A stretch of 64,000 nucleotides of DNA, from positions 539,313-603,312 of the forward strand of contig NZ_FUWS01000001.1 of assembly GCF_900167435.1 (NCBI RefSeq), in the 5' to 3' direction. The stretch is from Marinactinospora thermotolerans DSM 45154. Lineage in GTDB: Bacteria > Actinomycetota > Actinomycetes > Streptosporangiales > Streptosporangiaceae. Made by a program: the position numbers and the translations under genes. The notes under the pieces are model-generated. The model searched no databases. It saw only the letters and a list, made by a program, of their open reading frames with translations, and was not told where the DNA came from. Each line of letters opens with the position of its first letter. Position 1 is the stretch's first letter. Positions 4,412 through 34,175 of the stretch are shown in pieces.

Positions 4412-5056
4412 CTAGTCGCGAGCGGGACGCAGTGCCGCGAACCCCTCGCGCGCGGCGGCGTGCGCGGCGAGGATGCCCACCACCGTGGCGGCGTTGTGCA
4501 ACCGGCCCTCCAGCACGGCCCGCACCGCCTCCTCCAGCGGCACCCAGGCCAGCGGCATGTCCGCCTCTTCGTGCACCCGCACGAAATCGATCTCGCTCGG
4601 GGGGACCTCGCTGATCTCCCGGGCCAGGTAGACGACGATCTTCTCGTTGGAGAACCCCGTTGAGGGGAACACCTCGGCCAGCTCGTACCACGCCTCGGCC
4701 CGGTGCCCGGTCTCCTCCAGCAGCTCCCGCTGCGCAGTGCGCAGCGGGGACTCGCCGTCCATGTCGCGCAGGCCCGCGGGAAGCTCCCACAGGTAGTGGC
4801 CGACGGGGTGACGGTACTGACGCAGCAGGAGCACCCGCCCCTTGTCGTCCATCGCCAGCACGACGACGGCGCCGGGGTGGTCCAGGTAGTCGCGGGCGAC
4901 CGTCTCGGAACCGTTCTCACCCGGCATCACCACCCAGTCGGTGCGCATCCCCGCCTTGGCGCCGCGGTACCGCTCGACGCTGTCACGGACCTCCCAGGTC
5001 TGCGGCCTGTCGGCGATCTCCTCCGACCATTCGGCCACCTCCCGATCCCCGCTCAC
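4412..5056 (-). CDS. NUDIX hydrolase, ADP-ribose pyrophosphatase type
   Basis: 214 residues. The NUDIX box reads [12 protein letters not shown] then REDUNDANT-free core RELLEETG, with the actinobacterial ADPRase variant in which an extra residue separates the first Gly from the Glu. It is preceded by the ADPRase-type WELPAG and [21 protein letters not shown] segments. The predicted reaction is hydrolysis of ADP-ribose or a related nucleoside diphosphate sugar to AMP and a phosphosugar, Mg2+-dependent. The start overlaps the pyrG stop by four bases. Pairing with pyrG is common in actinobacteria; a link to nucleotide housekeeping is likely, but the exact substrate cannot be read from sequence. 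Confidence 0.88.
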
Positions 5057-6696
5057 CGCTGGCTACCGGACCGCTCCAGCGCGGCCGAGATCAGCCCGGC
5101 GAACAGCGGGTGCGGGCGGGTGGGCCGGGAGCGGAGTTCGGGGTGGGCCTGGGTGGCGACGAAGAAGGGGTGCTCCTCGCGGGGCAGTTCGACGTACTCC
5201 ACCAGGTGGCCGTCGGGCGACAGCCCCGAGAAGACCAGGCCGGCCTCCTCCAGCCGGGACCGGTAGGCGTTGTTGACCTCGTAGCGGTGCCGGTGGCGCT
5301 CCGACACCTCGGCGGCCTCGTAGAGGTCGCGCACCTGGGACCCCTCAAGGAGCCGGGCCGGGTACATGCCCAGTCGCATGGTGCCGCCCATGTCGCGCTC
5401 GCCCGCGACGACGTCGGTCTGGTCGGCCATCGTCGCGATCACCGCGTGCTTGGCCTTGTCGTCGAACTCGGCGCTGTTGGCGCCCTCCAGGCCCACGACG
5501 TTGCGGGCGTACTCGATGACCATGCACTGCAGCCCCAGGCAGATGCCCAGGAGCGGGAGCTTGTGCTCGCGGGCGTAGCGGATCGCGCCGAGCTTGCCCT
5601 CGATGCCGCGCACGCCGAACCCTCCGGGGATCAGCACGCCGTCGACGTCGGCCAACTCGGCCGCCGCCCCCTCGGGGCTGGCGCAGTTGTCGCTGGCCAC
5701 CCAGCGGATGTTGACCCGGGTGTCCTTCGCGAAGCCGCCGGCGCGCAGCGCCTCGGTGACCGACAGGTAGGCGTCGGGAAGGTCGATGTACTTGCCCACC
5801 AGGGCGATGGTGACCTCGTGCTCGGGCTGGTGGACGCGGCGCAGCAGGTCGTCCCACTCGGTCCAGTCGACGTCCCGGAAGGCCAGCCCCAGCCGCCGCA
5901 CGACGTAGGCGTCCAGGCCCTCGCGGTGCAGCACCTTGGGGATGTCGTAGATGGACGGCGCGTCGGGCGTGGAGACCACACCGCCCTGGTCCACGTCGCA
6001 CATCAGGCTGATCTTGTTCTTCAGGCTCTGCGTGATCGGCCGGTCCGAACGGCACACGATCGCGTCGGGCTGGATACCGATGCTGCGCAGCGCCGCGACG
6101 GAGTGCTGGGTCGGCTTGGTCTTGAGCTCGCCGGAGGGGCCGAGGTAGGGCAGCAGCGACACGTGCAGGAAGAAGCAGTTGTCCCGCCCGATCTCGTGGC
6201 GGATCTGGCGCACCGCCTCCAGGAAGGGCTGCGACTCGATGTCGCCGACCGTTCCGCCGATCTCGGTGATGACCAGGTCGACGTCGGCGTCCTCCATCGC
6301 GTAGATGCGCGCCTTGATCTCGTTGGTGATGTGCGGGATCACCTGGACGGTGTCGCCGAGGTAGGCGCCCTGCCGCTCCTTGGCGATCACGCTGGAGTAG
6401 ACCTGGCCGGTGGTGACGTTGGCCGACCCCGAAAGCTCGGTGTCGAGGAAACGCTCGTAGTGACCGATGTCGAGGTCGGTCTCGGCGCCGTCGTCGGTGA
6501 CGAACACCTCTCCGTGCTGGAACGGGTTCATCGTTCCAGGGTCGACATTGAGGTAGGGGTCCAGCTTCTGCATGGTGACCCGCAGGCCGCGGGACTTCAA
6601 CAGCCGCCCGAGGCTGGAGGCGGTGAGGCCCTTACCGAGACTGGAGGCGACGCCGCCGGTGACGAAGAGGTGTTTGGTGCTCGCGGCGGATGCCAA
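5053..6696 (-). CDS. pyrG: CTP synthase
   Basis: 547 residues, full length. It makes CTP from UTP, ATP and glutamine, the last step of pyrimidine nucleotide synthesis. The N-terminal synthase domain has [18 protein letters not shown] and [15 protein letters not shown]. The C-terminal class I glutaminase domain has the Cys in [18 protein letters not shown] and the His/Glu of [11 protein letters not shown]. The start is a TTG at 6696, supported by CGGGAG seven bases upstream; no ATG or GTG fits the family N-terminus ([13 protein letters not shown]). The following NUDIX gene overlaps its stop. Confidence 0.96.
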
Positions 6697-23841: not shown

Positions 23842-25083
23842 ATGCCAAGCAAGAAGGCCCTCGGCCTCACGGCTGCGGTCGCGGCCCTGGCCCTCGGACT
23901 GAGTGCGTGTGGCGGCGGCGGAGAGAGCGGCGGCGGCGAAGGCGGAGAAGCCGACGCGCTACGGTTCGGGTACATCTTCCCCGAGACGGGCGACCTCTCC
24001 CACCTCGGCCCGCCCCAGATCAGCGCCGCCAAGTACGCGCTGCACGAGATCAACGAGGCCGGCGGCGTGCTCGGTCAGGAGGTCCCCGAGATCCTGACCG
24101 GCGACGAGGCCAACGACGCCGCCCAGGCCAACGACGCCGCGGACCGCCTGCTCGGCCAGGACGTCGACGCCGTCCTCGGCGCGGCGGCCTCGGGCATGAC
24201 GATGGCGGTCATCGACCGGATCACCGGCGCCGAGGTCGTCCAGTGCTCCGGTTCCAACACCTCCCCCGACCTCAGCACCTACGAGGACGGCGGCTACTAC
24301 TTCCGCACCGCCCCCAGCGACCTGCTCCAGGGCCCCATCCTCGGCCAGAAGGTCGTCGACGACGGCCACCAGAGCGTCGCCGTCGTCTACCGCGCCGACG
24401 ACTACGGCCAGGGCCTCGCCGAGGCCACCGCCACCGCGCTGGAGGAGAACGGCGCCGAGGTCGTCCTCAACGAGGGCTACGACCCCAACTCGACCAACTT
24501 CACCTCGGTGGTGCAGCAGGTCGCCGGTTCCGGCGCCGACGCGGCCGTCCTGGTCTCCTTCGAGGAGGGCGTCCAGATCATCACCGGCCTCATCGAAGAG
24601 GGCTTCAGCCCCGAGCAGATGTACAGCGCCGACGGCCTCAACAACGAGGGCCTGGGCGAACTGGTCAACGCCGACGACCCCGGGGCGATCGCCGGATTCC
24701 AGGGCACCGCCCCCGGCGTCGACAACGAGCAGTTCACCACCGCCCTGACCGAGTTCGACTCCGAGCTCGAGGTGTTCCAGTACGCGCCGCAGGTCTACGA
24801 CTGCGCCATCGTGATCGCCCTGGCCGCCGAGGCGGCCGAGAGCACCGACCCGACGGTGTTCGTCGAGCAGATGACCGCCGTCACGCAGGGCGACACGCAG
24901 TGCTCGGGCTTCGCCGAGTGCCGCGACCTGCTCGCCGAGGGCCAGAGCATCGACTACCAGGGTGCCAGCGGCCCCCTGGACTTCGACGAGAACGGTGACG
25001 TCACCGTCGCCTCGTTCATGATCTACGGCTTCGACGAAGAGGGCACCCACCAGGCCCTCGAATACGTCGAGTCCAAGCCGTAA
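23842..25083 (+). CDS. ABC transporter substrate-binding lipoprotein, Leu/Ile/Val-binding type
   Basis: 413 residues. A lipoprotein signal ends LGLSACGGGG (lipobox LSAC, Cys at about 23), followed by a Gly/Glu linker and a type I periplasmic-binding fold (LRFGYIFPETGDLSHLGPPQISAAKYALHEIN; VVYRADDYGQGLAEATATALEENG; GADAAVLVSFEEG). The family binds branched-chain amino acids, other amides or aromatic acids; ligand is not deducible, but it clearly serves the convergent livHMGF genes. It is monocistronic and ends in several hairpins. Four Cys in the mature C-terminal half (YDCAIV, TQCSGFAECRD) may form disulfides. Confidence 0.92.
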   Translation: MPSKKALGLTAAVAALALGLSACGGGGESGGGEGGEADALRFGYIFPETGDLSHLGPPQISAAKYALHEINEAGGVLGQEVPEILTGDEANDAAQANDAADRLLGQDVDAVLGAAASGMTMAVIDRITGAEVVQCSGSNTSPDLSTYEDGGYYFRTAPSDLLQGPILGQKVVDDGHQSVAVVYRADDYGQGLAEATATALEENGAEVVLNEGYDPNSTNFTSVVQQVAGSGADAAVLVSFEEGVQIITGLIEEGFSPEQMYSADGLNNEGLGELVNADDPGAIAGFQGTAPGVDNEQFTTALTEFDSELEVFQYAPQVYDCAIVIALAAEAAESTDPTVFVEQMTAVTQGDTQCSGFAECRDLLAEGQSIDYQGASGPLDFDENGDVTVASFMIYGFDEEGTHQALEYVESKP

Positions 25084-25110
25084 CGTCCCACCCCGCACCA
25101 TCCCCCACCT

Positions 25111-25137
25111 GCGCCCCGGGCCCCCGGCCCGGGGCGC
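25111..25137 (+). terminator. Terminator of the binding-protein gene
   Basis: Eleven-base perfect arms GCGCCCCGGGC / GCCCGGGGCGC around a five-base CCCCG loop, 27 bases past the stop. Confidence 0.75.
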
Positions 25138-25267
25138 ACGTCGTCTCCGGCCGCCCCCCGAAGCCCCCGCCTCCCCGAGCGCCCGCGCCCGGCCCGCGGG
25201 GCCGCACCGCCGCCCGGCACCACCGCCGCCCCCTCCCTAGGGCGGCGGCATCCCCTCTGACGCCGCC

Positions 25268-25331
25268 GCCCTTCGTGTCGGGACCGGTCCCGACACGAAG
25301 GGCGCCCGGCCGGATCCCCGGCCGGGCGCCC
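25268..25331. terminator. Two overlapping palindromes between convergent liv genes
   Basis: A perfect 36-base palindrome at 25268-25303 (arm GCCCTTCGTGTCGGGACC) shares four bases with a second hairpin at 25300-25331 (14-base arms GGGCGCCCGGCCGG / CCGGCCGGGCGCCC, ATCC loop). They lie 59 bases beyond the livF stop on the minus strand and 184 bases past the binding-protein stop on the plus strand, so a bidirectional terminator is likely. Bases 25138-25267 and 25332-25390 show no gene. Confidence 0.65.
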
Positions 25332-25390
25332 TCCTGCGTCAACAGCCGCCCCGCGCCCCCGCGAACCGCGAGACCGGACGGCCGCCTCCA

Positions 25391-26230
25391 TCAGGCCGAC
25401 TTCGCCAACGTCCCCAGGTACAGCTCCACCACGTTGGGGTCCTCCAGCAGCTCCCGCCCCGTCCCGGTGTAGGCGTTGCGGCCCTGGTCCAGCACGTAGC
25501 CGCGGTCGCAGATCTGCAGGCACCGGCGCGCGTTCTGCTCGACCATGATCACCGAGACACCGGTGGCGTTGATCTGCTTGACCCGCTGGAACACCTCCTC
25601 CTGGTAGATCGGCGACAGCCCGGCCGTCGGCTCGTCCAACAGCAGCACCGACGGCTCCATCATCAGCGCCCGTCCCATCGCCACCATCTGGCGCTCACCG
25701 CCCGACAGCGCGCCCGCCTTCTGCCGCCGCCGCTGCGCCAGCAGCGGGAACAGCTCGGCCACCGCGTCGAAACGCGCGGCGAACGACTTGGGACGCAGGT
25801 AGGCCCCCATCTGGAGGTTCTCCTCGACGGTCAACGTCGGGAACACGTTCTGCGTCTGCGGAACGTAGCCCACCCCACGCGACACCAGTTCGTGCGCCGC
25901 GAGGTTGGCGATGCTCTCCCCCCTCAGCGACAGCCCGCCCGAGCGCACCGGGATCAGCCCGAAGATCGTCTTGATCAACGTCGACTTGCCCGCGCCGTTG
26001 GGGCCGATGATCCCCACGACCTCCCCCTCGTCCAGGGTCAGGGTGCAGCCGTTGAGGATGTTCACCTCGGGCACGTACCCGGCCACCAGCTCGTCGGCGA
26101 AGACCAGGTGGTCGCGCGGGTCCCCCGCCGGCGCCGTCCCGGCCCGCTCCAGCACCTCCTCGCGGACGTGCTGGGCCTCCACGGCGGCCTCGACACCCGA
26201 GGGGCGTTCCTGCTCCGGGTTCCCGCTCAT
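25391..26230 (-). CDS. livF: Branched-chain amino acid-type ABC transporter ATPase LivF
   Basis: 279 residues from the ATG that overlaps the livG stop (ATGA). Walker A GPNGAGKST, Q-loop VPQTQNVFPTLTVEENL, signature LSGGERQ, Walker B VLLLDEPTAGLSP and switch His-region VIMVEQNARRCLQ are all present; the short LivF form ends VELYLGTLAKSA. About 45 extra residues precede the core (MSGNPEQERPSGVEAAVEA), charged and probably flexible. With LivG it forms the nucleotide-binding pair driving the LivHM permease. Confidence 0.93.
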   Translation of the reverse strand: MSGNPEQERPSGVEAAVEAQHVREEVLERAGTAPAGDPRDHLVFADELVAGYVPEVNILNGCTLTLDEGEVVGIIGPNGAGKSTLIKTIFGLIPVRSGGLSLRGESIANLAAHELVSRGVGYVPQTQNVFPTLTVEENLQMGAYLRPKSFAARFDAVAELFPLLAQRRRQKAGALSGGERQMVAMGRALMMEPSVLLLDEPTAGLSPIYQEEVFQRVKQINATGVSVIMVEQNARRCLQICDRGYVLDQGRNAYTGTGRELLEDPNVVELYLGTLAKSA

Positions 26231-27108
26231 CGGTCCTCCTCCGGCTCTGCCGCCGCGGGCACCGCCGTGTCCGACGGCTCCTCGTGGTGGGTGCCCAGGT
26301 AGGCGTCCACCACCTCCTTGTTGGCCCGGATGTCGGCCGGTCGGCCCTCGGCGATCACCCTGCCCTGGGCCAGCACCACGATCCAGTCGCTGATGCCCAT
26401 GATCACGTCCATGTCGTGCTCGACGAACAGCACCGTCATGCCCTCGTCGCGCAACGCCGTGATGTGGCCGAGCAACGACTGGACCAGCGCGGGGTTGACC
26501 CCCGCCATCGGCTCGTCCAGCATCACCATCGACGGGTTCACCATCAGGGAACGCGCCATCTCCAACAGCTTGCGCTGACCGCCCGAGAGACTGCCCGCCA
26601 TCTCGTCCTTCTTGGCCAGCAGCTTGAAGCGCTCCAGCAGCGCCTCGGCGCGCTCGGCGTTGGCGCGTTCCTGACGGCCCCACAGACCGCGCGCGAACGC
26701 CCCCCACATGCGCTCACCCGTCTGGCCGGGCGCCGCCAGCAGCATGTTGTCCATCACCGTCAACCGGGTCAGGGCCTTGGTCAGCTGGAAGGTGCGCACC
26801 ATCCCGGTCCGGGCCACCTGGTGGCCGCCCAGCCGGTTGAGGCGACGCCCCTCGAACGACCACTCCCCCGCGTCCACCCGGTCGAACCCGGTCAGCAGGT
26901 TGAACAGCGTCGACTTGCCGGCACCGTTGGGGCCGATCAGCGCGGTGATCGTGCCGCGCTGGACCTCCAGGTGCTCCACGTCCACCGCGGTGAGCCCGCC
27001 GAAGGAACGGCGCACGCCGTCCACCGTGAGGATGGGGTCGGGCTTGGTCACCCCCGGCTCCGGGGCGACGCCCGCCATCCGGTCCACCGGGGTCGGGTCA
27101 CTTGACAT
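26227..27108 (-). CDS. livG: Branched-chain amino acid-type ABC transporter ATPase LivG
   Basis: 293 residues. Walker A GPNGAGKST, LivG-type insert region FQLTKALTRLTVMDNMLLAA, signature LSGGQRK, Walker B MVMLDEPMAGVNP, H-loop VLFVEHDMDVIMGISD and the C-terminal LivG element VVDAYLG followed by a tail of ~20 residues rich in Glu/Ala. The ATG start overlaps the livM stop by 11 bases. It is cytoplasmic, attached to the permease, and the ATP partner of LivF. Confidence 0.94.
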   Translation of the reverse strand: MSSDPTPVDRMAGVAPEPGVTKPDPILTVDGVRRSFGGLTAVDVEHLEVQRGTITALIGPNGAGKSTLFNLLTGFDRVDAGEWSFEGRRLNRLGGHQVARTGMVRTFQLTKALTRLTVMDNMLLAAPGQTGERMWGAFARGLWGRQERANAERAEALLERFKLLAKKDEMAGSLSGGQRKLLEMARSLMVNPSMVMLDEPMAGVNPALVQSLLGHITALRDEGMTVLFVEHDMDVIMGISDWIVVLAQGRVIAEGRPADIRANKEVVDAYLGTHHEEPSDTAVPAAAEPEEDR

Positions 27109-28084
27109 TGACCAGCATCTCCTTGCGGTTACCGATGATTCCCTGCGGCCGGTAGACGATCAGCAGCAACAACGTCAGGCCCACCATCGCGTGGCGCAGC
27201 GCGCCGACGTCGGAGCCCTGCAGGAACGGCAGGATCCCGGTGGAGGACAGCGAACGCAGCAGCTCGTCGAAGACGGTGAGCAGGAACCACATGACGACCG
27301 CGCCCAGAACCGGACCGAGCGTGCGGCCCGCGCCGCCCAGCAGCAGCATCGCCCACAGGTAGAACGTCACCTGCGGCATGAACTGGTCGGGGGTGATCGT
27401 CTGCTGGTTGATCGCGATCATCGCGCCGGCCAACGCCCCGAACACGCCGCCCAGCACCAGGCTCTGCATCTTGTAGACGAAGACGTTCTTGCCGAGGCTG
27501 CGCACCGCCTCCTCGTCCTCGCGGATGCCCTTGATGACCCGGCCCCACGGACTGTGGATCAGCAGCCACATGACCAGGCAGGCCAGGGCGACCAGGCCCC
27601 ACAGCACCGTCATCAGCCAAAGGTCGCGGGCCGAGAAGGAGATGTCGCCCACCCCGTAGTCGCCCGGCGGGAACGGGTTCGCGTCGTAGAAGTCGCCGGC
27701 GAAGCGCTGGAGACCGTAGACACCGCCGGTGACCTCCTGGGCGAAACTCGCCCGGTAGAGCAGCCGCGCCACCTCGGCCACCGCGATCGTGCAGATCGAC
27801 AGGTAGTCGGCGCGCAGGCGCAGCGTCGGGATGCCCAGCAGCAACGCCAGCACCACGGCGCAGGCCACGCTGACGGCGAACCCCGCCCACAGGGGCAGCC
27901 CGAAGGTCGTCACGCTGACCGCGACACCGTAGGCGCCGACCAGCATGAACCCGACCTGACCGAAGTTGAGCAGACCGGTGTAGCCGAAGTGCAGGTTCAG
28001 CCCGATCGCGGCGAGCGCGTAGATCGCGGCGATCGGACCGATCGCCGTTTCGAATGCGCTGGAGAGGATGTACATGAAGTCCAC
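27098..28084 (-). CDS. livM: Branched-chain amino acid-type ABC permease LivM
   Basis: 328 residues, about ten transmembrane helices. Family stretches: LNLHFGYTGLLNFGQVGFMLVGAYG, RLRADYLSICTIAVAEVARLL, the EAA-like ATPase-contact loop SPWGRVIKGIREDEEAVRSLGKNVF, and GGAGRTLGPVLGAVVMWFL. It ends IVYRPQGIIGNRKEMLVNVK. GTG start with GGAG at good spacing. The livH stop is 9 bases upstream, so H-M-G-F is one transcript. Confidence 0.94.
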   Translation of the reverse strand: MDFMYILSSAFETAIGPIAAIYALAAIGLNLHFGYTGLLNFGQVGFMLVGAYGVAVSVTTFGLPLWAGFAVSVACAVVLALLLGIPTLRLRADYLSICTIAVAEVARLLYRASFAQEVTGGVYGLQRFAGDFYDANPFPPGDYGVGDISFSARDLWLMTVLWGLVALACLVMWLLIHSPWGRVIKGIREDEEAVRSLGKNVFVYKMQSLVLGGVFGALAGAMIAINQQTITPDQFMPQVTFYLWAMLLLGGAGRTLGPVLGAVVMWFLLTVFDELLRSLSSTGILPFLQGSDVGALRHAMVGLTLLLLIVYRPQGIIGNRKEMLVNVK

Positions 28085-28093
28085 GTGCGTCTC

Positions 28094-29479
28094 CTAGCCC
28101 ACCCGCTCGCGACGGCCCAGGATGCCCTGCGGCCGGACCAACAACACGACGATCATGATCGCCAGCGCCCAGGCGTTCATGAGTTCCGAGGGGAACCACA
28201 GCGTCGACAACTGCGCGACCAGGCCGATGACCAGACCACCCACCATGGCCCCGTAGGCGGTGCCCAGTCCGCCCAGGATCACCGCGGCGAACATCAGCAG
28301 GAGCAGGTGGAAACCCATCTGCCAGTACACCGACTGGCTCAGGCCGTAGAAGACGCCGCCCAGCGCGGACAGCCCGCCGCCCAGACCCCACACGTAGAGG
28401 GTGACCCGGTCCACGTCGATCCCCGACGACTCCGCCAGGTCCCGGTTGTCGGCCACCGCCCGCATGGCCTTGCCGATACGGGTGAACTGCAACATCGCCG
28501 CGACCGCCACGAGAACCAGGACCGACAGGCAGATGATCGTCAGCTCGCGGGGCGTGACCCCCACCGGACCCAGCCGGATCATCTCCTGAAGCTGGTACTC
28601 GTCATAGCGTTCGCGGTTGCCCCCGAAGCCGACCAGCAGCAGGTGGCGCAGGATCAGCGCGACGCCGATCGAGACGATGAACATCTGGATCAGGGCCACG
28701 TTGCGCCGGCGCAGCGGACGCCACAGGAACCGTTCCAGGCCGATGCCCAACAGCGCGCCCAGCACGACCGCGATGAGCGCCGCCACCACGAGGGGGACGT
28801 CGTTGAAGGTGGCACCCGTGCTGAACAGCAGCGCCATCATCGCGCCGAAGGTGACCATGTCACCGTGGGCGAAGTTGATCATGCGGGTGGTGCCGAAGAT
28901 CAGGGACAGGCCGATCGCCGAGATCGCGATGACCAGGCCGAAGCTGATGCCCGCGACCGTCAGCTGCACGACCTTCGTCCCGAACGGGGTGGCGGAGCTC
29001 ACCCCGGGGGCGGTGGTGACCCCCTCGGGTGTCCCCTCCCCCTGCGCCGGTTCCTCCTCGGCGGCCTCCTGGGCGGGCTCGCTGGGGGAGGCGGAGGAGC
29101 CCCCCTCCTCCTCGCCCGGCCGCGCGAGGTTGAAGATCACGGTCCGTTGCTGTCCTTCGCGGACTTGGACCTCATCGTGTTCGGGACCCGGCCTTTCCGA
29201 GACGACGTACTCGTCGGGTACGGACTCTTGGTCCAGGACGACGCGGTAGGCGCCCGGTCCGGGCACCTCCACTTCCCACTCTCCGTCGGGGCCGGTCGTC
29301 GCCGTTCCGATCTCCTCCGAGCCCTGGTAGACCGTGATGTCGATTCCCTCGACGGTCTCGGGCTTGCGGATCTGACCGTTCAGCGTCTCCCCGCCCTGGT
29401 CGTCTGCCACCGCTCCGGCCGGGATCACCAGGATGGCGGTGATCACGGCGAGCAGCACAGTCACGAGGCGTCTGCGCAC
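28094..29479 (-). CDS. livH: LivH-type ABC permease with an exported N-terminal domain
   Basis: 461 residues against about 290-310 for ordinary LivH. Residues 170-461 are a complete permease (SLIFGTTRMINFAHGDMVTFGA, RIGKAMRAVADNRDLAESSGIDVDRV, ILGGLGTAYGAMVGGLVIG). In front are a signal peptide (MRRRLVTVLLAVITAILVIPAGAVA), a beta-rich domain at about residues 30-120 (GIDITVYQGSEEIGTATTGPDGEWEVEVPGPGAYRVVL) that fits a carboxypeptidase-regulatory-like/prealbumin fold, and an acidic Ser/Pro/Glu linker (120-165). The frame is continuous and the GTG has AAGGAG upstream, so it is a genuine fusion. The extra domain would lie outside the membrane next to the binding protein. Confidence 0.9.
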   Translation of the reverse strand: MRRRLVTVLLAVITAILVIPAGAVADDQGGETLNGQIRKPETVEGIDITVYQGSEEIGTATTGPDGEWEVEVPGPGAYRVVLDQESVPDEYVVSERPGPEHDEVQVREGQQRTVIFNLARPGEEEGGSSASPSEPAQEAAEEEPAQGEGTPEGVTTAPGVSSATPFGTKVVQLTVAGISFGLVIAISAIGLSLIFGTTRMINFAHGDMVTFGAMMALLFSTGATFNDVPLVVAALIAVVLGALLGIGLERFLWRPLRRRNVALIQMFIVSIGVALILRHLLLVGFGGNRERYDEYQLQEMIRLGPVGVTPRELTIICLSVLVLVAVAAMLQFTRIGKAMRAVADNRDLAESSGIDVDRVTLYVWGLGGGLSALGGVFYGLSQSVYWQMGFHLLLLMFAAVILGGLGTAYGAMVGGLVIGLVAQLSTLWFPSELMNAWALAIMIVVLLVRPQGILGRRERVG

Positions 29480-29733: not shown

Positions 29734-30330
29734 TTACCCCTGCCGACCCTCCAACGTCTCGATGACGGTCTCGGCGACCTTGCGCATGGTCAGCCGGCGG
29801 TCCATGGAGTTCTTCTGAATCCAGCGGAACGCCTCCGGCTCGCTCAACCCGTGCCGGCTCTGCAGGAGCCCCTTGGCGCGTTCGACGAGCTTGCGCGTCT
29901 CCAGGCGCTCGGTCAGCCCGCTCACCTCGGCCTCCAGGGCGGTGAGCTCGGCGTAGCGGCTGACCGCCATCTCGATGGCCGGAACGAGATCAGCCTTGCT
30001 GAACGGTTTGACCAGGTAGGCCATTGCCCCGGCGTCGCGCGCCCGCTCGACGAGCTCGCGCTGGGAGAAGGCCGTCAGGATGACGACGGGCGCGATGCGC
30101 TCCGCCGCGATCCGCTCGGCCGCCGAGATCCCGTCGAGCACCGGCATCTTGATGTCGAGGATGACGAGATCGGGTTTGAGCTCGGTGGCCAGCCGGATGG
30201 CGGTCTCCCCGTCCCCCGCCTCACCCACGACGGCATAGCCGTCCTCCTCAAGCATCTCCTTGAGGTCCAGTCGGATCAGGGCCTCGTCTTCCGCGATCAC
30301 CACGCGGCTCTGCGTCTGCGTCACGCGCAT
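29734..30330 (-). CDS. ANTAR-domain response regulator, PdtaR-like
   Basis: 198 residues from the ATG at 30330. The N-terminal receiver domain has the acidic pair EDE (14-16), phospho-acceptor Asp59 in LVILDIKMP, and Lys in YLVKPF. The C-terminal ANTAR RNA-binding domain (about 145-195) reads RKLVERAKGLLQSRHGLSEPEAFRWIQKNSMDRRLTMRKVAE. This is the actinobacterial PdtaR (Rv1626) layout: the phosphorylated dimer binds paired hairpins in nascent RNA and prevents termination. No partner histidine kinase lies nearby. It is transcribed alone, upstream of and in the same direction as the liv operon. Confidence 0.92.
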   Translation of the reverse strand: MRVTQTQSRVVIAEDEALIRLDLKEMLEEDGYAVVGEAGDGETAIRLATELKPDLVILDIKMPVLDGISAAERIAAERIAPVVILTAFSQRELVERARDAGAMAYLVKPFSKADLVPAIEMAVSRYAELTALEAEVSGLTERLETRKLVERAKGLLQSRHGLSEPEAFRWIQKNSMDRRLTMRKVAETVIETLEGRQG

Positions 30331-30450
30331 GAGCCTACCGAGAACGTGTAGACTTGCGGACGTCGGATCGCCTCCCCCGTCCAGGCGCGACAGGCGACTT
30401 CGATCAAGTGAAGCGGACATACCACTCATACATGTCCTCTTGCACAAAAG

Positions 30451-30534
30451 GCCGGAATGGTGGAATAGGCAGACACGGAGGTCTCAAACACCTCTGCCTG
30501 AAAGGGCTTGTGGGTTCGAGTCCCACTTCCGGCA
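30451..30534 (+). tRNA. tRNA-Leu (anticodon CAA)
   Basis: 84 bases with acceptor stem GCCGGAA / TTCCGGC, discriminator A at 30534, anticodon stem GAGGT / ACCTC (30478-30482 / 30490-30494), anticodon CAA at 30485-30487, long variable arm (TGCCTGAAAGGGCTTG region) typical of a class II tRNA, and T-arm GTGGGTTCGAGTCCCAC. It reads UUG codons, which are rare in such a GC-rich genome. The CCA tail is not encoded. Confidence 0.97.
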
Positions 30535-30547
30535 CGCATCACGGGAC

Positions 30548-30576
30548 AAGAAGAGCACCCTCAGGGTGCTCTTCTT
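30548..30576 (+). terminator. Terminator after tRNA-Leu
   Basis: Fourteen-base perfect arms AAGAAGAGCACCCT / AGGGTGCTCTTCTT with a one-base centre, ending in CTTCTT, 14 bases beyond the tRNA. Confidence 0.85.
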
Positions 30577-30643
30577 CACTTCTGTACCCACACCGTCGCG
30601 GAAAGTCCCCTCCTCCGGCTTCTGCACCCTCGATGCTGGTCCC

Positions 30644-31423
30644 ATGCACCCGCGTGAACTGGTCGACGAGACCCGCCGTCTCACCCGCCAGGGGTTCTCC
30701 GATCAGGTCGTCTCGACGCTCCTGGGAGTCCCCAGAAGCACCATCGGGAACTGGCGCCGTGGCACCAGCAGGGCCGCCCCCCTCCGCAGGGACCCGACCG
30801 GGGACGCCTACTGTCCACGTTGCCACGGCAGACCCCTTTCCTCCGCCTATCCCTATCTCCTGGGGCTCTACCTGGGGGACGGTCACATCACCCCGGTCCG
30901 AAGCGTCTATGGCCTGTCGATCACCTGTTGCGACGACTGGCCGGGGCTCATAGGGCTCTGCGCCGAGGCCATGGGCGCGGTGCTTCCCGTATCGGTCTTT
31001 CGGGTCCGGCGGAGCGGATGCACCGAGGTCAAGTCCACGTCCAGCCACTGGCCCTGCCTGTTCCCCCAGCACGGCCCGGGCCCCAAGCACCGCCGCCCGA
31101 TCCGGCTGGCCCCGTGGCAGCGCGAGGCCGTCGACCGGCGTCTGGACCAGTTCGTCCGGGGCCTGTTCCACTCGGACGGGTGTCGCGCGACCAACTCCAC
31201 GAAGAGGCGGGTCCAGGGGTCGGTCAGACGGTACGAATATCCTCGCTACCTCTTCTCCAACGCCTCCCAGGACATCCTCGGTCTCCTGGGACGCAGTCTC
31301 GACTCCCTGGGAGTCGACTGGCGCCAGAGCCGCCCCGTCACCGAGGGGAGCGTCGGCATGATCTCCGTCGCCAAGCGGGCCTCGGTGGCTCGCCTGGACG
31401 AGTTCGTGGGGCCGAAACACTGA
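30644..31423 (+). CDS. HTH plus LAGLIDADG-type protein (homing-endonuclease-like)
   Basis: 259 residues from the ATG at 30644, 110 bases after tRNA-Leu. Residues 1-42 form a helix-turn-helix (TRQGFSDQVVSTLLGVPRSTIGNWRRG); a CPRC pair (57-60) suggests a zinc knuckle; two LAGLIDADG motifs follow, YLLGLYLGDG (71-80) and FVRGLFHSDG (170-179), each with the catalytic-position Asp. Two motifs make a single-chain LAGLIDADG fold. Free-standing HTH/LAGLIDADG proteins occur in many actinobacteria, often annotated only as transcriptional regulators. It interrupts no gene and no intron or intein is visible. No strong Shine-Dalgarno is seen. It could be an endonuclease or a domesticated DNA-binding regulator. 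Confidence 0.82.
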   Translation: MHPRELVDETRRLTRQGFSDQVVSTLLGVPRSTIGNWRRGTSRAAPLRRDPTGDAYCPRCHGRPLSSAYPYLLGLYLGDGHITPVRSVYGLSITCCDDWPGLIGLCAEAMGAVLPVSVFRVRRSGCTEVKSTSSHWPCLFPQHGPGPKHRRPIRLAPWQREAVDRRLDQFVRGLFHSDGCRATNSTKRRVQGSVRRYEYPRYLFSNASQDILGLLGRSLDSLGVDWRQSRPVTEGSVGMISVAKRASVARLDEFVGPKH

Positions 31424-31641
31424 GCCGCCACCACCTTTTCCGGCCCTAATACGCCTTTTGTGGCGTTCTGTAAATGACGCGCGGCCGGATGCGGTCACAT
31501 CCCGGCTACAACCTGAGCACAACACGCAGGTTCGGTCGCCAGGGGAGGTCGTGGTCCCCGATCCTGGAAAGCGGGAGTCGTCAAGGGGTCTGCGGCGCGA
31601 CTCTTCCCGTCCGCCGCCCACCCGTTCGAAGGGAGTGGCTG

Positions 31642-32586
31642 GTGTTCACCGCGGTGACCGGCGTCCTGGGTGGTTTGGTCATCATCGCCTGGGTCGTGGT
31701 CGCGTGGGCCTCCCGACGCCGCCAACCCTGGTATCTCGCGCCGGTGGCCCTCCTCATCGTCGCTCTCGTCGCCTTCGACCTCCCCGTTTGGGCCCTGCTC
31801 CCGATCGTGGCCCTGGGGGCGGGCACCTTCACCGAACTGGTGGTGGGCACGCGCGAGGCCCCCACGCTGCGCACCAAGGACCCCGACGCCCCCCTGAGCA
31901 CGGAACGGTGGGCCGCCGCGGTCGCCGCACCGTTTCGGGTCGCGTTGGCCGAGCCCTGGGACGTCGTGGTCCGTCCCCAGCTGCGGCGCCGCTACCGCAA
32001 GATCTTCGAGCTGGAATGGGGCGTGGTCGACCGGGAGTCGCTGTTGGCGGCGGTGGAACGGTTGTGGGAGGAGCTGCACACCGGGCACAGCCCGGACCTG
32101 ATCGTGGACTTCCGCGCCGCGACGGCGCGCAGCCGCGACCCCGAGGGCCGGCGTCCGGAGCGCACGATCTCGCTGACCCCCGAGCAGGTGGAGCGGATGC
32201 GCGAGGTCACCGGCGCCGACGACTCCACGCAGACCGTGGTCATCAGCGCCTACCAGTGGTGGAAGTCGGTCCACCTGGTCAGGCTGGCCTGTGGCGGTGC
32301 CACGCTCGACTGGTTGAGTCCGGTCGAGACCCAGAGCCTGCTGCGTCGGGTCGCCTCGGACCTGCAGCGTCGCTACGCGAGCTGGCGGCAACTGGCCGAG
32401 GCGTTCCACGGCGGCTACCTGCTGTGGCAGGGGGGCGGTTTTGAGGAGGCGGACTGCGACCGGGTCTGGACGGCGCTGGGCCTGTTGACCACCGATCCGG
32501 CGAGCCCGTGGAACATGCTGCCCTGGGACATGCCGCTGGAGCGGGTGCCCAACGACCACAACGTCCCCAACGCCCAGCCGCAGTGA
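31642..32586 (+). CDS. DUF1266 membrane-anchored protein
   Basis: 314 residues from the GTG at 31642, chosen for AAGGGAG eight bases upstream; the open frame extends to 31474. Two N-terminal hydrophobic segments (FTAVTGVLGGLVIIAWVVVAW and WYLAPVALLIVALVAFDLP) anchor the protein. A C-terminal DUF1266 domain (about residues 205-300) contains YQWWKSVHLVRLACGGATLDWLS, then RRYASWRQLAEAFHGGYLLWQGG. DUF1266 has no established function. It is monocistronic and faces pyk. The 218 bases between the LAGLIDADG gene and this one are AT-richer and probably contain the promoter. Confidence 0.8.
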   Translation: MFTAVTGVLGGLVIIAWVVVAWASRRRQPWYLAPVALLIVALVAFDLPVWALLPIVALGAGTFTELVVGTREAPTLRTKDPDAPLSTERWAAAVAAPFRVALAEPWDVVVRPQLRRRYRKIFELEWGVVDRESLLAAVERLWEELHTGHSPDLIVDFRAATARSRDPEGRRPERTISLTPEQVERMREVTGADDSTQTVVISAYQWWKSVHLVRLACGGATLDWLSPVETQSLLRRVASDLQRRYASWRQLAEAFHGGYLLWQGGGFEEADCDRVWTALGLLTTDPASPWNMLPWDMPLERVPNDHNVPNAQPQ

Positions 32587-32673: not shown

Positions 32674-34104
32674 CTACTTGCCGTGGGCGATCGCGTCGCC
32701 GATGCGGTGGACTCGCAGCGAGTTGGTGGACCCCGGGGTGCCGGGCGGGCTCCCCGAGACGATGACGACCTTGTCGCCCTTCTGGTACCGGCCCATGTCG
32801 AGGAGCTCGCTCTCGACCTGGCGGACCATCTCGTCGGTGTGGTCGACCCAGGGCACGCAGTAGGTCTCGACGCCCCAGGTCAGCGAGAGCTGGGCCCGGG
32901 TGGAGGCCTCGGTGGTGAAGGCCATGAGCGGAATGGGCGAGCGGTAACGCGCCAGCCGGCGCGCGGTCTCGCCGCTCATGGTGAAGGCGATGAGCGCCTT
33001 GGCGCCCACGGTCGCCCCGACCTCGGCGGCGGCGCGGGCGATGGCGCCGCCGGTGGTCTCGGGCACCCGGTTGAGGATGTGCGAGGCCCGCAGCGACTCC
33101 TGCTCGGCCGCGGCGACGATGCGGCTCATCGTCTGGACGGTCTCGATCGGGTAGCGGCCGACACTGGTCTCGCCGGAGAGCATGACGGCGTCGGCGCCGT
33201 CGAGGACGGCGTTGGCGACATCGGAGGCCTCGGCCCGGGTGGGACGGGGCGCGCTGATCATGGACTCGAGCATCTGCGTGGCGACGATGACCGGCTTGGC
33301 CTTGTCGCGGCAGCGCTCGACAGCGCGTTTCTGAACCATCGGGACGTTTTCGAGGGGGAGTTCGACGCCGAGGTCGCCGCGGGCGACCATGACCCCGTCG
33401 AAGACCTCGATGATGTCCTGGAGCCGTTCGACGGCCTGGGGCTTTTCGATCTTGGCGATGAGGGGGACGCGCAGCCCCACCTCGTCCATGATCTTGTGGA
33501 CGTCCTCGGCGTCGGCCGGGCTGCGGACGAAGGAGAGGGCGACCATGTCCACGCCCTGCTCCAGCGCCCAGCGCAGGTCGGCCTCGTCCTTCTCGGTGAG
33601 CGCGGGAACGCTGACCGAGACGCCGGGGAGGTTGAGCCCCTTGTTGTTGGAGACGGTTCCGCCGATGAGGACGCGCGTGTGGACGTCGGTGGTCGAGGTC
33701 TTGACGCATTCCAGCACGACGCGGCCGTCGTCGACGAGGACGCGGTCGCCGGGACGGACGTCCCCCGGCAGGCCCTTATAGGTGGTGGACACCCGGTGCC
33801 TGTCGCCGGGGACGTCGTCGATGGTGACGGTGAACTCGTCGCCTGGCTTCAGTTCGACGGGTCCGTCGGCGAACCTGCCCAACCGGATCTTGGGACCCTG
33901 CAGGTCGGCGAGGATGCCCACGCTGCGGCCGGTGGCTTCGGCTGCTGCGCGTACGTTCTCGTAGTTCGCGCGGTGGTCATCGTGCGTACCGTGGCTGAGG
34001 TTGAGTCGCGCTACGTCCAGCCCGGCTTCGACAAGCGCGCGGATGCTCTCCGGGCTCGATGTGGCTGGGCCGAGGGTCGCGACGATTTTTGCTCGACGTG
34101 TCAC
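32674..34104 (-). CDS. pyk: Pyruvate kinase
   Basis: 476 residues from the GTG at 34104, giving MTRRAKIVATLGPATSSPE, the usual opening; a GTG three codons upstream (34113) is also possible. The active-site blocks are intact: RLNLSHGTHDDH, LADLQGPKIRLG, the signature LIAKIEKPQAVERL with its catalytic Lys, MVARGDLGVELP and VATQMLESMI, then a C-terminal regulatory domain (KALIAFTMSGETARRLARYR). It converts PEP and ADP to pyruvate and ATP at the end of glycolysis. TAGAGT seven bases before the GTG suggests a leaderless transcript. Confidence 0.95.
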   Translation of the reverse strand: MTRRAKIVATLGPATSSPESIRALVEAGLDVARLNLSHGTHDDHRANYENVRAAAEATGRSVGILADLQGPKIRLGRFADGPVELKPGDEFTVTIDDVPGDRHRVSTTYKGLPGDVRPGDRVLVDDGRVVLECVKTSTTDVHTRVLIGGTVSNNKGLNLPGVSVSVPALTEKDEADLRWALEQGVDMVALSFVRSPADAEDVHKIMDEVGLRVPLIAKIEKPQAVERLQDIIEVFDGVMVARGDLGVELPLENVPMVQKRAVERCRDKAKPVIVATQMLESMISAPRPTRAEASDVANAVLDGADAVMLSGETSVGRYPIETVQTMSRIVAAAEQESLRASHILNRVPETTGGAIARAAAEVGATVGAKALIAFTMSGETARRLARYRSPIPLMAFTTEASTRAQLSLTWGVETYCVPWVDHTDEMVRQVESELLDMGRYQKGDKVVIVSGSPPGTPGSTNSLRVHRIGDAIAHGK

Positions 34105-34175
34105 ATTACACACTCTAGGGCTTCTCAGCCGTGCAGTGGTCTAAACCAGGTTGCGAACAGGCGTCATCAGCGGGG

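Follow-up and report, generated by a model that had tools for sequence, protein, structure and literature searches.

A free-standing HTH-LAGLIDADG gene beside tRNA-Leu in actinobacteria: a putative homing endonuclease co-inherited with tRNA shape in Streptomyces

INTRODUCTION

Homing endonucleases are typically encountered in introns, inteins and phages. The free-standing homing gene is a known kind, and we know of no recorded chromosome-to-chromosome homing of such a kind in bacteria. Unusual tRNAs have reportedly been the subject of earlier work.

The published accounts, in the portions that we consulted, describe SegB of the T-even phages (T4/T6) as a free-standing homing endonuclease that lies among tRNA genes, cuts within tRNA genes and has the motif RAWTSGAAC (PMC2988022, PMC13096335). 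Co-conversion is described for free-standing homing enzymes in the same portions (PMC2988022, PMC13096335). HNH homing endonuclease genes are present in the tRNA clusters of mycobacteria, according to the accessible part of PMC6582537. Class II tRNAs such as tRNA-Leu are expected to carry a long variable arm (PMC7609411, in excerpt). A search of the literature, with most subscription papers outside it, returned no HTH-LAGLIDADG gene beside tRNA-Leu in actinobacteria, nor joint inheritance of such a gene with tRNA shape.

We analysed a 64,000-nucleotide stretch of the genome of Marinactinospora thermotolerans DSM 45154, hereafter the window. The initial annotation of the window had drawn attention to a gene for a protein with a helix-turn-helix (HTH) and LAGLIDADG motifs next to a tRNA-Leu(CAA) gene, and had proposed either a free-standing homing endonuclease of the tRNA locus or a domesticated DNA-binding regulator. 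Here, we describe this gene, its relatives and their association with tRNA-Leu.

RESULTS

The tRNA-Leu(CAA) locus of the window

The features of the locus are given in Table 1. The tRNA-Leu(CAA) gene is the sole tRNA gene that ARAGORN found in the 64-kb window, and is the anchor of the homing gene and its presumed target locus; UUG we take to be a rare codon in this genome. The homing gene lies downstream of it at a distance of 108 bp (the initial annotation had put this at 110 bases), and is present as a single copy in its own genome (E 0.01). As had been claimed, the tRNA gene is intact and no intron, intein or interrupted gene harbours the homing gene: ARAGORN called the tRNA intact, the flanks are in order and the insert is 3' of the tRNA. 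The inverted repeat between the two genes is perhaps the end of the tRNA transcript; a terminator scan that required a T tract found no terminator-like site. There are no direct repeats of at least 14 nt within 30440-31700, and the 3' 20 bases of the tRNA occur only once in the window. We also observed from the list of open reading frames that a gene set resembling a branched-chain amino-acid ABC transporter (23842-29479) adjoins the ANTAR regulator.

Table 1. Coordinates of the features in and around the homing gene (positions of the window)
Feature	Position	Strand	Basis or remark
ANTAR response regulator (label: pdtaR-like), left flank, conserved	29734..30447	-	Pfam Response_reg + ANTAR; synteny
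tRNA-Leu(CAA), 85 nt, long variable arm	30451..30535	+	ARAGORN; Rfam tRNA 53.6 bits in genome search
Inverted repeat, perfect, 14-nt arms, 1 nt spacer	30548..30576	+	Repeat search
HTH-LAGLIDADG homing-endonuclease gene (putative), free-standing, 259 aa, ATG 30644, stop 31423	30644..31423	+	
Helix-turn-helix, aa 12-43	30677..30772	+	Pfam HTH_23; model helices H4-15, H20-27, H31-38
CPRC, aa 57-60	30812..30823	+	C57 in 123/125, C60 in 120/125 proteins
First LAGLIDADG motif YLLGLYLGDG, presumed catalytic D79	30854..30883	+	
Second LAGLIDADG motif FVRGLFHSDG, presumed catalytic D178	31151..31180	+	
DUF1266 protein (label: X370), right flank, window-like relatives only	31474..32586	+	Pfam DUF1266; synteny
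Pyruvate kinase (pyk), right flank, conserved	32674..34113	-	Pfam PK + PK_C; synteny

The protein keeps the residues and the fold of a LAGLIDADG nuclease

The HTH, the CPRC pair (residues 57-60) and the two intact LAGLIDADG motifs (with D79 and D178), all of which had been read from the sequence, were confirmed. In Pfam, the window protein matched HTH_23 (E 1.7e-4) and LAGLIDADG_3 (E 1.4e-3), both just below the gathering scores; among the 59 aligned homologues, matches at E 0.01 were found to HTH_23 in 45/59 and to LAGLIDADG_3 in 49/59. Both D79 and D178 are retained in all the 125 distinct proteins, the window protein included. No GIY-YIG model was found in the window protein by Pfam, nor in the families listed for the 59 homologues. 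In PHROGs, the window protein gave one match, in the HTH region, and the 59 homologues matched mostly DNA-binding families, with an 'endonuclease' family matched by nine of the 59 (best E 0.0012). The window protein had no match in PADLOC, in NCBIfam or in the collections of phages and plasmids; for some of its homologues NCBIfam gave matches, all to transposase- or regulator-type models.

The AlphaFold2 model of the protein (mean pLDDT 92.4, pTM 0.79, values below 50 only at residues 44-51) matched LAGLIDADG proteins in a Foldseek search with E down to 3.3e-8. The VIA Z scores of the core were 17.0 for the TliVMA intein nuclease, 16.4 for I-Tsp061I and up to 16.3 for I-DmoI, and those of 16-17 span 160-175 residues of the LAGLIDADG nuclease fold. 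The score for the regulator WhiA (8dy7) was 15.9, which, the intein aside, is no more than 1 below the best nucleases. As most of these Z scores are ties, the fold by itself does not separate a nuclease from a regulator. Sequence comparison with solved structures gave weak matches only, among them I-AniI, a maturase and I-Tsp061I. Intact copies show signs of purifying selection, with a median dN/dS of 0.16 (range 0.10-0.22) in 27 similar and non-independent pairs.

The constant neighbour of the homing gene is tRNA-Leu

Homologues were collected by protein similarity alone, with position ignored, and duplicates were removed so that no place was counted twice. Among the resulting 218 distinct loci (genes or fragments, 21 of them shorter than 200 aa), the homing gene is neighboured by tRNA-Leu in 215, and the other three are contig ends without any tRNA. 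Recurrence of homologues beside tRNA genes, which had been suggested as a check on the homing interpretation, is therefore seen at 215/218 loci. The anticodon is CAA in 207 of these loci, UAG in five and UAA in three. The nearest tRNA is at most 350 bp from the best match in 207/215 loci; in the remaining eight the match is partial or is the second copy of a double. In the best 80 database loci, tRNA-Leu(CAA) adjoins the gene in 79, the one miss being a contig end, and in 77 of those 79 it is on the same strand, 34-340 bp before the gene. The search of the relatives, own genome included, gave 28 matching genomes; tRNA-Leu was in the stretch read for 25 of them (24 CAA, 1 UAG), and the match was at a contig end in the other three. 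At one locus (L047), a tRNA-Tyr gene is nearer on the other side, and tRNA-Leu(CAA) is 120 bp from the gene.

In most loci the gene is 3' of the tRNA. Divergent genes on the 5' side of tRNA-Leu(CAA) were found in family f21 (L368-L372) and in Actinomycetospora (L057, L063), and others, again divergent, on the 5' side of tRNA-Leu(UAG) in family f6 (L021, L364-L367). In three closely alike viral contigs, tRNA-Leu(UAA) is followed at 3-15 bp by a relative with 32-33% identity. The constant element is thus tRNA-Leu, while side, strand and isoacceptor vary. Chance neighbourhood was considered and rejected on these counts.

A few unusual arrangements were also noted. In a viral contig stretch (L358), ARAGORN called a tRNA-Leu(CAA) gene (4893-4966) that lies in frame within the homing-gene reading frame (4698-5501), after the HTH and before the first LAGLIDADG motif, in the linker that joins them; one tRNA-Pro gene and four more tRNA-Leu genes are present on this stretch. 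Some loci have the tRNA turned round with respect to the ANTAR regulator, on its own in L183, along with the homing gene or its remnant in L026 and L077, and with the homing gene keeping its orientation in L057 and L063.

We also read all the 57 Rfam tRNA hits of the own genome. The only tRNA-Leu(UAA) gene (G000:C25:128300-128373; L159) and the only tRNA-Leu(UAG) gene (G000:C24:319088-319160; L160) have a short variable loop, that is, a class I shape, and the CAG, GAG and CAA genes have the long arm. A weak second tRNA-Tyr(GTA)-like gene of 39 bits, possibly a pseudogene, is present at L147 186-270 (C13:150685-150767).

The gene is patchy, with empty sites and decayed copies at one syntenic place

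The homing gene or a piece of it is present in 27 of the 99 relatives (28/100 with the own genome), in 147 of the 199 Streptomyces genomes and in 64 of the 296 genomes of the class (own genome included), which belong to 22 of the 114 genera. The syntenic order is ANTAR regulator, tRNA-Leu(CAA), homing gene where present, and pyruvate kinase. In window-like relatives without the gene, the next protein match begins 264-346 bp past the tRNA (L163, L165, L170, L175, L189), or at 570 bp in L182; in relatives with the gene it begins at ∼1.0-1.2 kb, except for L044 (2.0 kb). Empty sites, which the initial annotation had proposed to seek in related genomes, are therefore present, and so are decayed copies. 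The empty Streptomyces locus L246 and the locus L264, with a decayed copy, have identical tRNAs; they align to ∼56 bp past the tRNA and again from 65 and 865 bp past it, respectively, which gives an insert of ∼800 bp. No direct repeat was found at the tRNA in L264.

We picked 100 Streptomyces loci from the searches, 32 of them as empty and 68 with a match. On reading, 58 had an intact gene, 13 a remnant and 29 none; a C-terminal tail was kept in three of the 32 'empty' picks (L247, L252, L257). Intact here means one match of at least 236 aa with no stop, and L268, in which the distance to pyk is unusually short, is counted in this class. Double copies were found in G134 and G146 (Streptomyces) and in G419 and G436 (class sample). 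In two Streptomyces loci without the homing gene (L234, L245), the ∼0.9-1.0 kb gap between tRNA and pyk holds a Sua5/YciO-like ORF on the pyk strand, as read from the sequence.

Patchy presence, empty sites and truncated and double copies at one syntenic place therefore indicate a free-standing homing-type gene and not a fixed regulator.

The tRNA shape is inherited with the N-terminal half of the protein in Streptomyces

The tRNA-Leu(CAA) gene occurs in two shapes, one having a long variable arm and the other a short loop (class I shape), and both are found in Streptomyces, where the 100 loci have 41 different anticodon-to-T-arm sequences. We followed the tRNA shape on trees of the homing protein and of both the flanking genes. 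The doubles L274 and L275 were omitted, which left 56 of the 58 intact loci; 47 (trees) and 49 (identities) of these had enough of pyk. For the 47 loci, the shape changes only twice on the homing-protein tree (shuffled mean 15.7), compared to 17 changes on the pyk tree (shuffled mean 15.7) and 18 on that of the ANTAR regulator (shuffled mean 16.0). The shapes are thus scattered as by chance on both flanking-gene trees. Along the protein, for 56 loci and shuffled means of ∼18, the shape needs 3 changes on aa 1-125, 7 on aa 126-257 and 13 when only aa 191-257 are used.

Pairwise identities gave a consistent picture. In 1176 pairs from 49 Streptomyces loci, the identity within and between tRNA shapes was 62% and 26% for aa 1-60, 62% and 50% for aa 61-125, 76% and 72% for aa 126-190, and 73% and 72% for aa 191 to the end. 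The corresponding values were 86.3% and 86.4% for pyk, and 87.7% in both cases for the ANTAR regulator. The rank correlation was 0.49 between pyk and the ANTAR regulator, and 0.04 and 0.12 between the flanking genes and the homing protein. Hence, in Streptomyces the shape of tRNA-Leu(CAA) goes with the N-terminal HTH module in inheritance, and not with the C-terminal part or either flanking gene.

Near-sister loci show where the blocks are exchanged. Between L233 and L305, identity is 96% in pyk, 97% in the regulator and 57% in the tRNA; only L305 has the gene. In four other pairs (L297/L327, L277/L315, L276/L278, L296/L300), with 94-96% identity in pyk, the tRNA shapes and the N-terminal halves differ; here identity drops 100-150 bp before the tRNA and rises again either within the gene's second half or at pyk. 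From these swapped tRNA and HTH blocks, together with the linkage, we infer that a tRNA/endonuclease cassette has probably been co-converted, although the same observations do not demonstrate the enzyme as the cause.

Extent of the linkage, and tRNA shape in genera with and without the gene

Outside Streptomyces the linkage is weak: for 70 proteins, 19 changes were counted against a shuffled mean of 23.5, and 10 of 300 shuffles were as low. In the named Streptomyces set of 34 loci, which has few long tRNAs, there is no shape signal (3 changes, shuffled mean 3.9). Mismatches also occur in Streptomyces, L295 having a short tRNA with a long-type protein, and L078, L092, L098, L311 and L322 having short tRNAs with proteins that group among the long-type. 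The linkage declines along the gene, as plain physical linkage or co-transfer would also give. However, no linkage is seen for the regulator, whose match begins ∼180 bp left of the tRNA, against strong linkage for the HTH at ∼110-290 bp on the right, and this asymmetry counts against plain co-transfer alone.

As a control, tRNA shapes were compared between genera with at least two genomes read, using the class sample and, for four of the nine gene-bearing genera, loci from the synteny and homologue readings instead. Both shapes were found in 6/9 genera with the gene, compared to 1/21 genera without it; these counts hold among the matches listed, with relatedness, genus age and sampling uncontrolled. 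The one mixed genus without a gene match is g106. In family f19, which has no match, 25 of the 26 genomes (four of the five genera) share one tRNA-Leu(CAA) fragment, and the 26th, from the fifth genus, has the long arm. Genus g87 has two tRNA variants in 16 genomes. The 29 Streptomyces loci without the gene have 18 tRNA forms; under the homing explanation, such variety at gene-free loci requires past elements.

DISCUSSION

In the homing gene and its relatives, the nuclease fold and the active-site residues are conserved, the neighbour is constant, and both mobility and decay are seen. Absence, decay and doubling at one syntenic place are the picture of a homing cycle and not of a vertical regulator. 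The free-standing homing endonuclease of the tRNA locus that the initial annotation had put forward thus finds support, at the level of sequence, in the recurrence beside tRNA-Leu, the empty sites and the decayed copies. We consider it probable that the homing gene encodes a LAGLIDADG homing endonuclease, putative as to cleavage, that lives off tRNA-Leu loci through a homing cycle with co-conversion of the tRNA. In such a cycle, the protein would recognise a tRNA-Leu(CAA) locus that lacks the element, or has another allele, and introduce a double-strand break, with the HTH giving part of the target specificity. Repair would then copy the promoter-tRNA-endonuclease block of the donor and co-convert the tRNA allele with it. 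The resistant allele would be the one that the donor itself carries, which would give immunity. Later, the gene would decay and be lost, leaving the site open again.

A more tentative idea, which we regard as possible and somewhat less likely to hold than to fail, is that the HTH module and the tRNA-Leu allele are matched to each other, as a nuclease is to its immune target: each type would cut the tRNA-Leu(CAA) gene of the other shape, and carry its own resistant tRNA. This would explain why tRNA-Leu(CAA) shows variety in the presence of the enzyme and hardly any in its absence. If so, a selfish enzyme would be repeatedly rewriting a tRNA gene across Streptomyces, even between class II (long arm) and class I (short loop).

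The linkage data have to be weighed against another explanation, which we hold to be unlikely: that tRNA-Leu(CAA) is replaced for a different cause (tRNA-cutting toxins, phage-defence nucleases or ordinary homologous recombination), and that the endonuclease gene hitch-hikes or exploits the recombination. The decay of linkage with distance along the gene would fit this, and so would the varied tRNAs at gene-free loci and the two shapes in genus g106, which is without a match. Moreover, some anti-phage systems act by cutting the variable loop of a tRNA, and a phage tRNA whose variable loop is distinctive is resistant to one such system (PMC13096335). Replacement for such a cause, however, leaves unexplained why each of the 215 readable loci has tRNA-Leu as neighbour, whichever side the gene is on and whichever of three isoacceptors it accompanies. 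It also leaves unexplained the near-constant shape of tRNA-Leu(CAA) in the absence of the gene (1/21 genera mixed, among the matches listed) and a linkage that is nil ∼180 bp to the left of the tRNA and strong ∼110-290 bp to its right.

The observations on the protein itself bear on a domesticated, WhiA-like DNA-binding regulator, for example of the adjacent tRNA gene. An HTH combined with a LAGLIDADG core is found in WhiA too, with a VIA Z of 15.9, and purifying selection and a constant neighbour would suit a regulator; but the HTH is N-terminal here and C-terminal in WhiA, and many relatives lack the gene or have a decayed copy. The pattern that would have spoken for vertical descent, a fixed gene without its catalytic Asp residues, was not seen, as the gene is patchy and both Asp residues are present in 125/125 proteins, whereas WhiA has lost key residues according to the part of PMC3781837 that was available. 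The regulator, the second proposal of the initial annotation, is therefore not supported, and we judge it improbable. The insert is only ∼800 bp, which likewise speaks against a passenger gene carried along by an integrative element or a prophage remnant for which the tRNA serves as attachment site. The 3' ends of tRNAs are common attachment sites, and relatives of the gene occur in four viral contigs; yet the tRNA 3' end is not repeated within the window, the gene is also found on the 5' side of the tRNA, and the phage and plasmid collections have no match to the window protein. Such a passenger we regard as very improbable indeed, the least credible of these alternatives.

Returning to the homing endonuclease, a chromosomal family that spans actinobacteria, keeps to one tRNA isotype and is co-inherited with particular tRNA alleles would be a natural example of selfish DNA that drives how a component of translation evolves. 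The family would also offer a ready system in which to study changes of meganuclease specificity by way of a separate HTH module. The finding further draws attention to short-loop tRNA-Leu genes as the sole decoders of some leucine codons.

Among the known systems, SegB is by analogy the nearest worked-out parallel, being a free-standing gene beside tRNA genes, as is the gene described here. It differs in being a GIY-YIG enzyme of phages that did not favour particular tRNA isotypes, as far as the consulted portions of the SegB accounts tell, whereas the present gene is of the HTH-LAGLIDADG type, occurs mostly in bacterial chromosomes and has tRNA-Leu at every readable locus. As SegB is a GIY-YIG enzyme, the homing gene here would do similar work by means of another family. 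By our own comparison, the SegB motif, read on the other strand, resembles the T-loop common to tRNA genes. I-DmoI and I-Tsp061I share with the window protein the fold of about residues 63-259 (Z ∼16) and the two motifs with acidic residues, at 13-24% identity in two structural alignments; unlike them, it is not intron-encoded, and it has an added N-terminal HTH and CPRC pair. WhiA and the DUF199 proteins are actinobacterial and likewise combine a LAGLIDADG core with an HTH, but the homing protein keeps the catalytic residues, has its HTH at the opposite end, and is patchy and mobile. The mycobacterial HNH genes, in the accessible part of PMC6582537, are also homing genes among horizontally acquired tRNA genes, which include a short-loop tRNA-Leu(TAG); those lie in multi-tRNA clusters of proposed phage origin, whereas the gene described here accompanies a single chromosomal tRNA-Leu.
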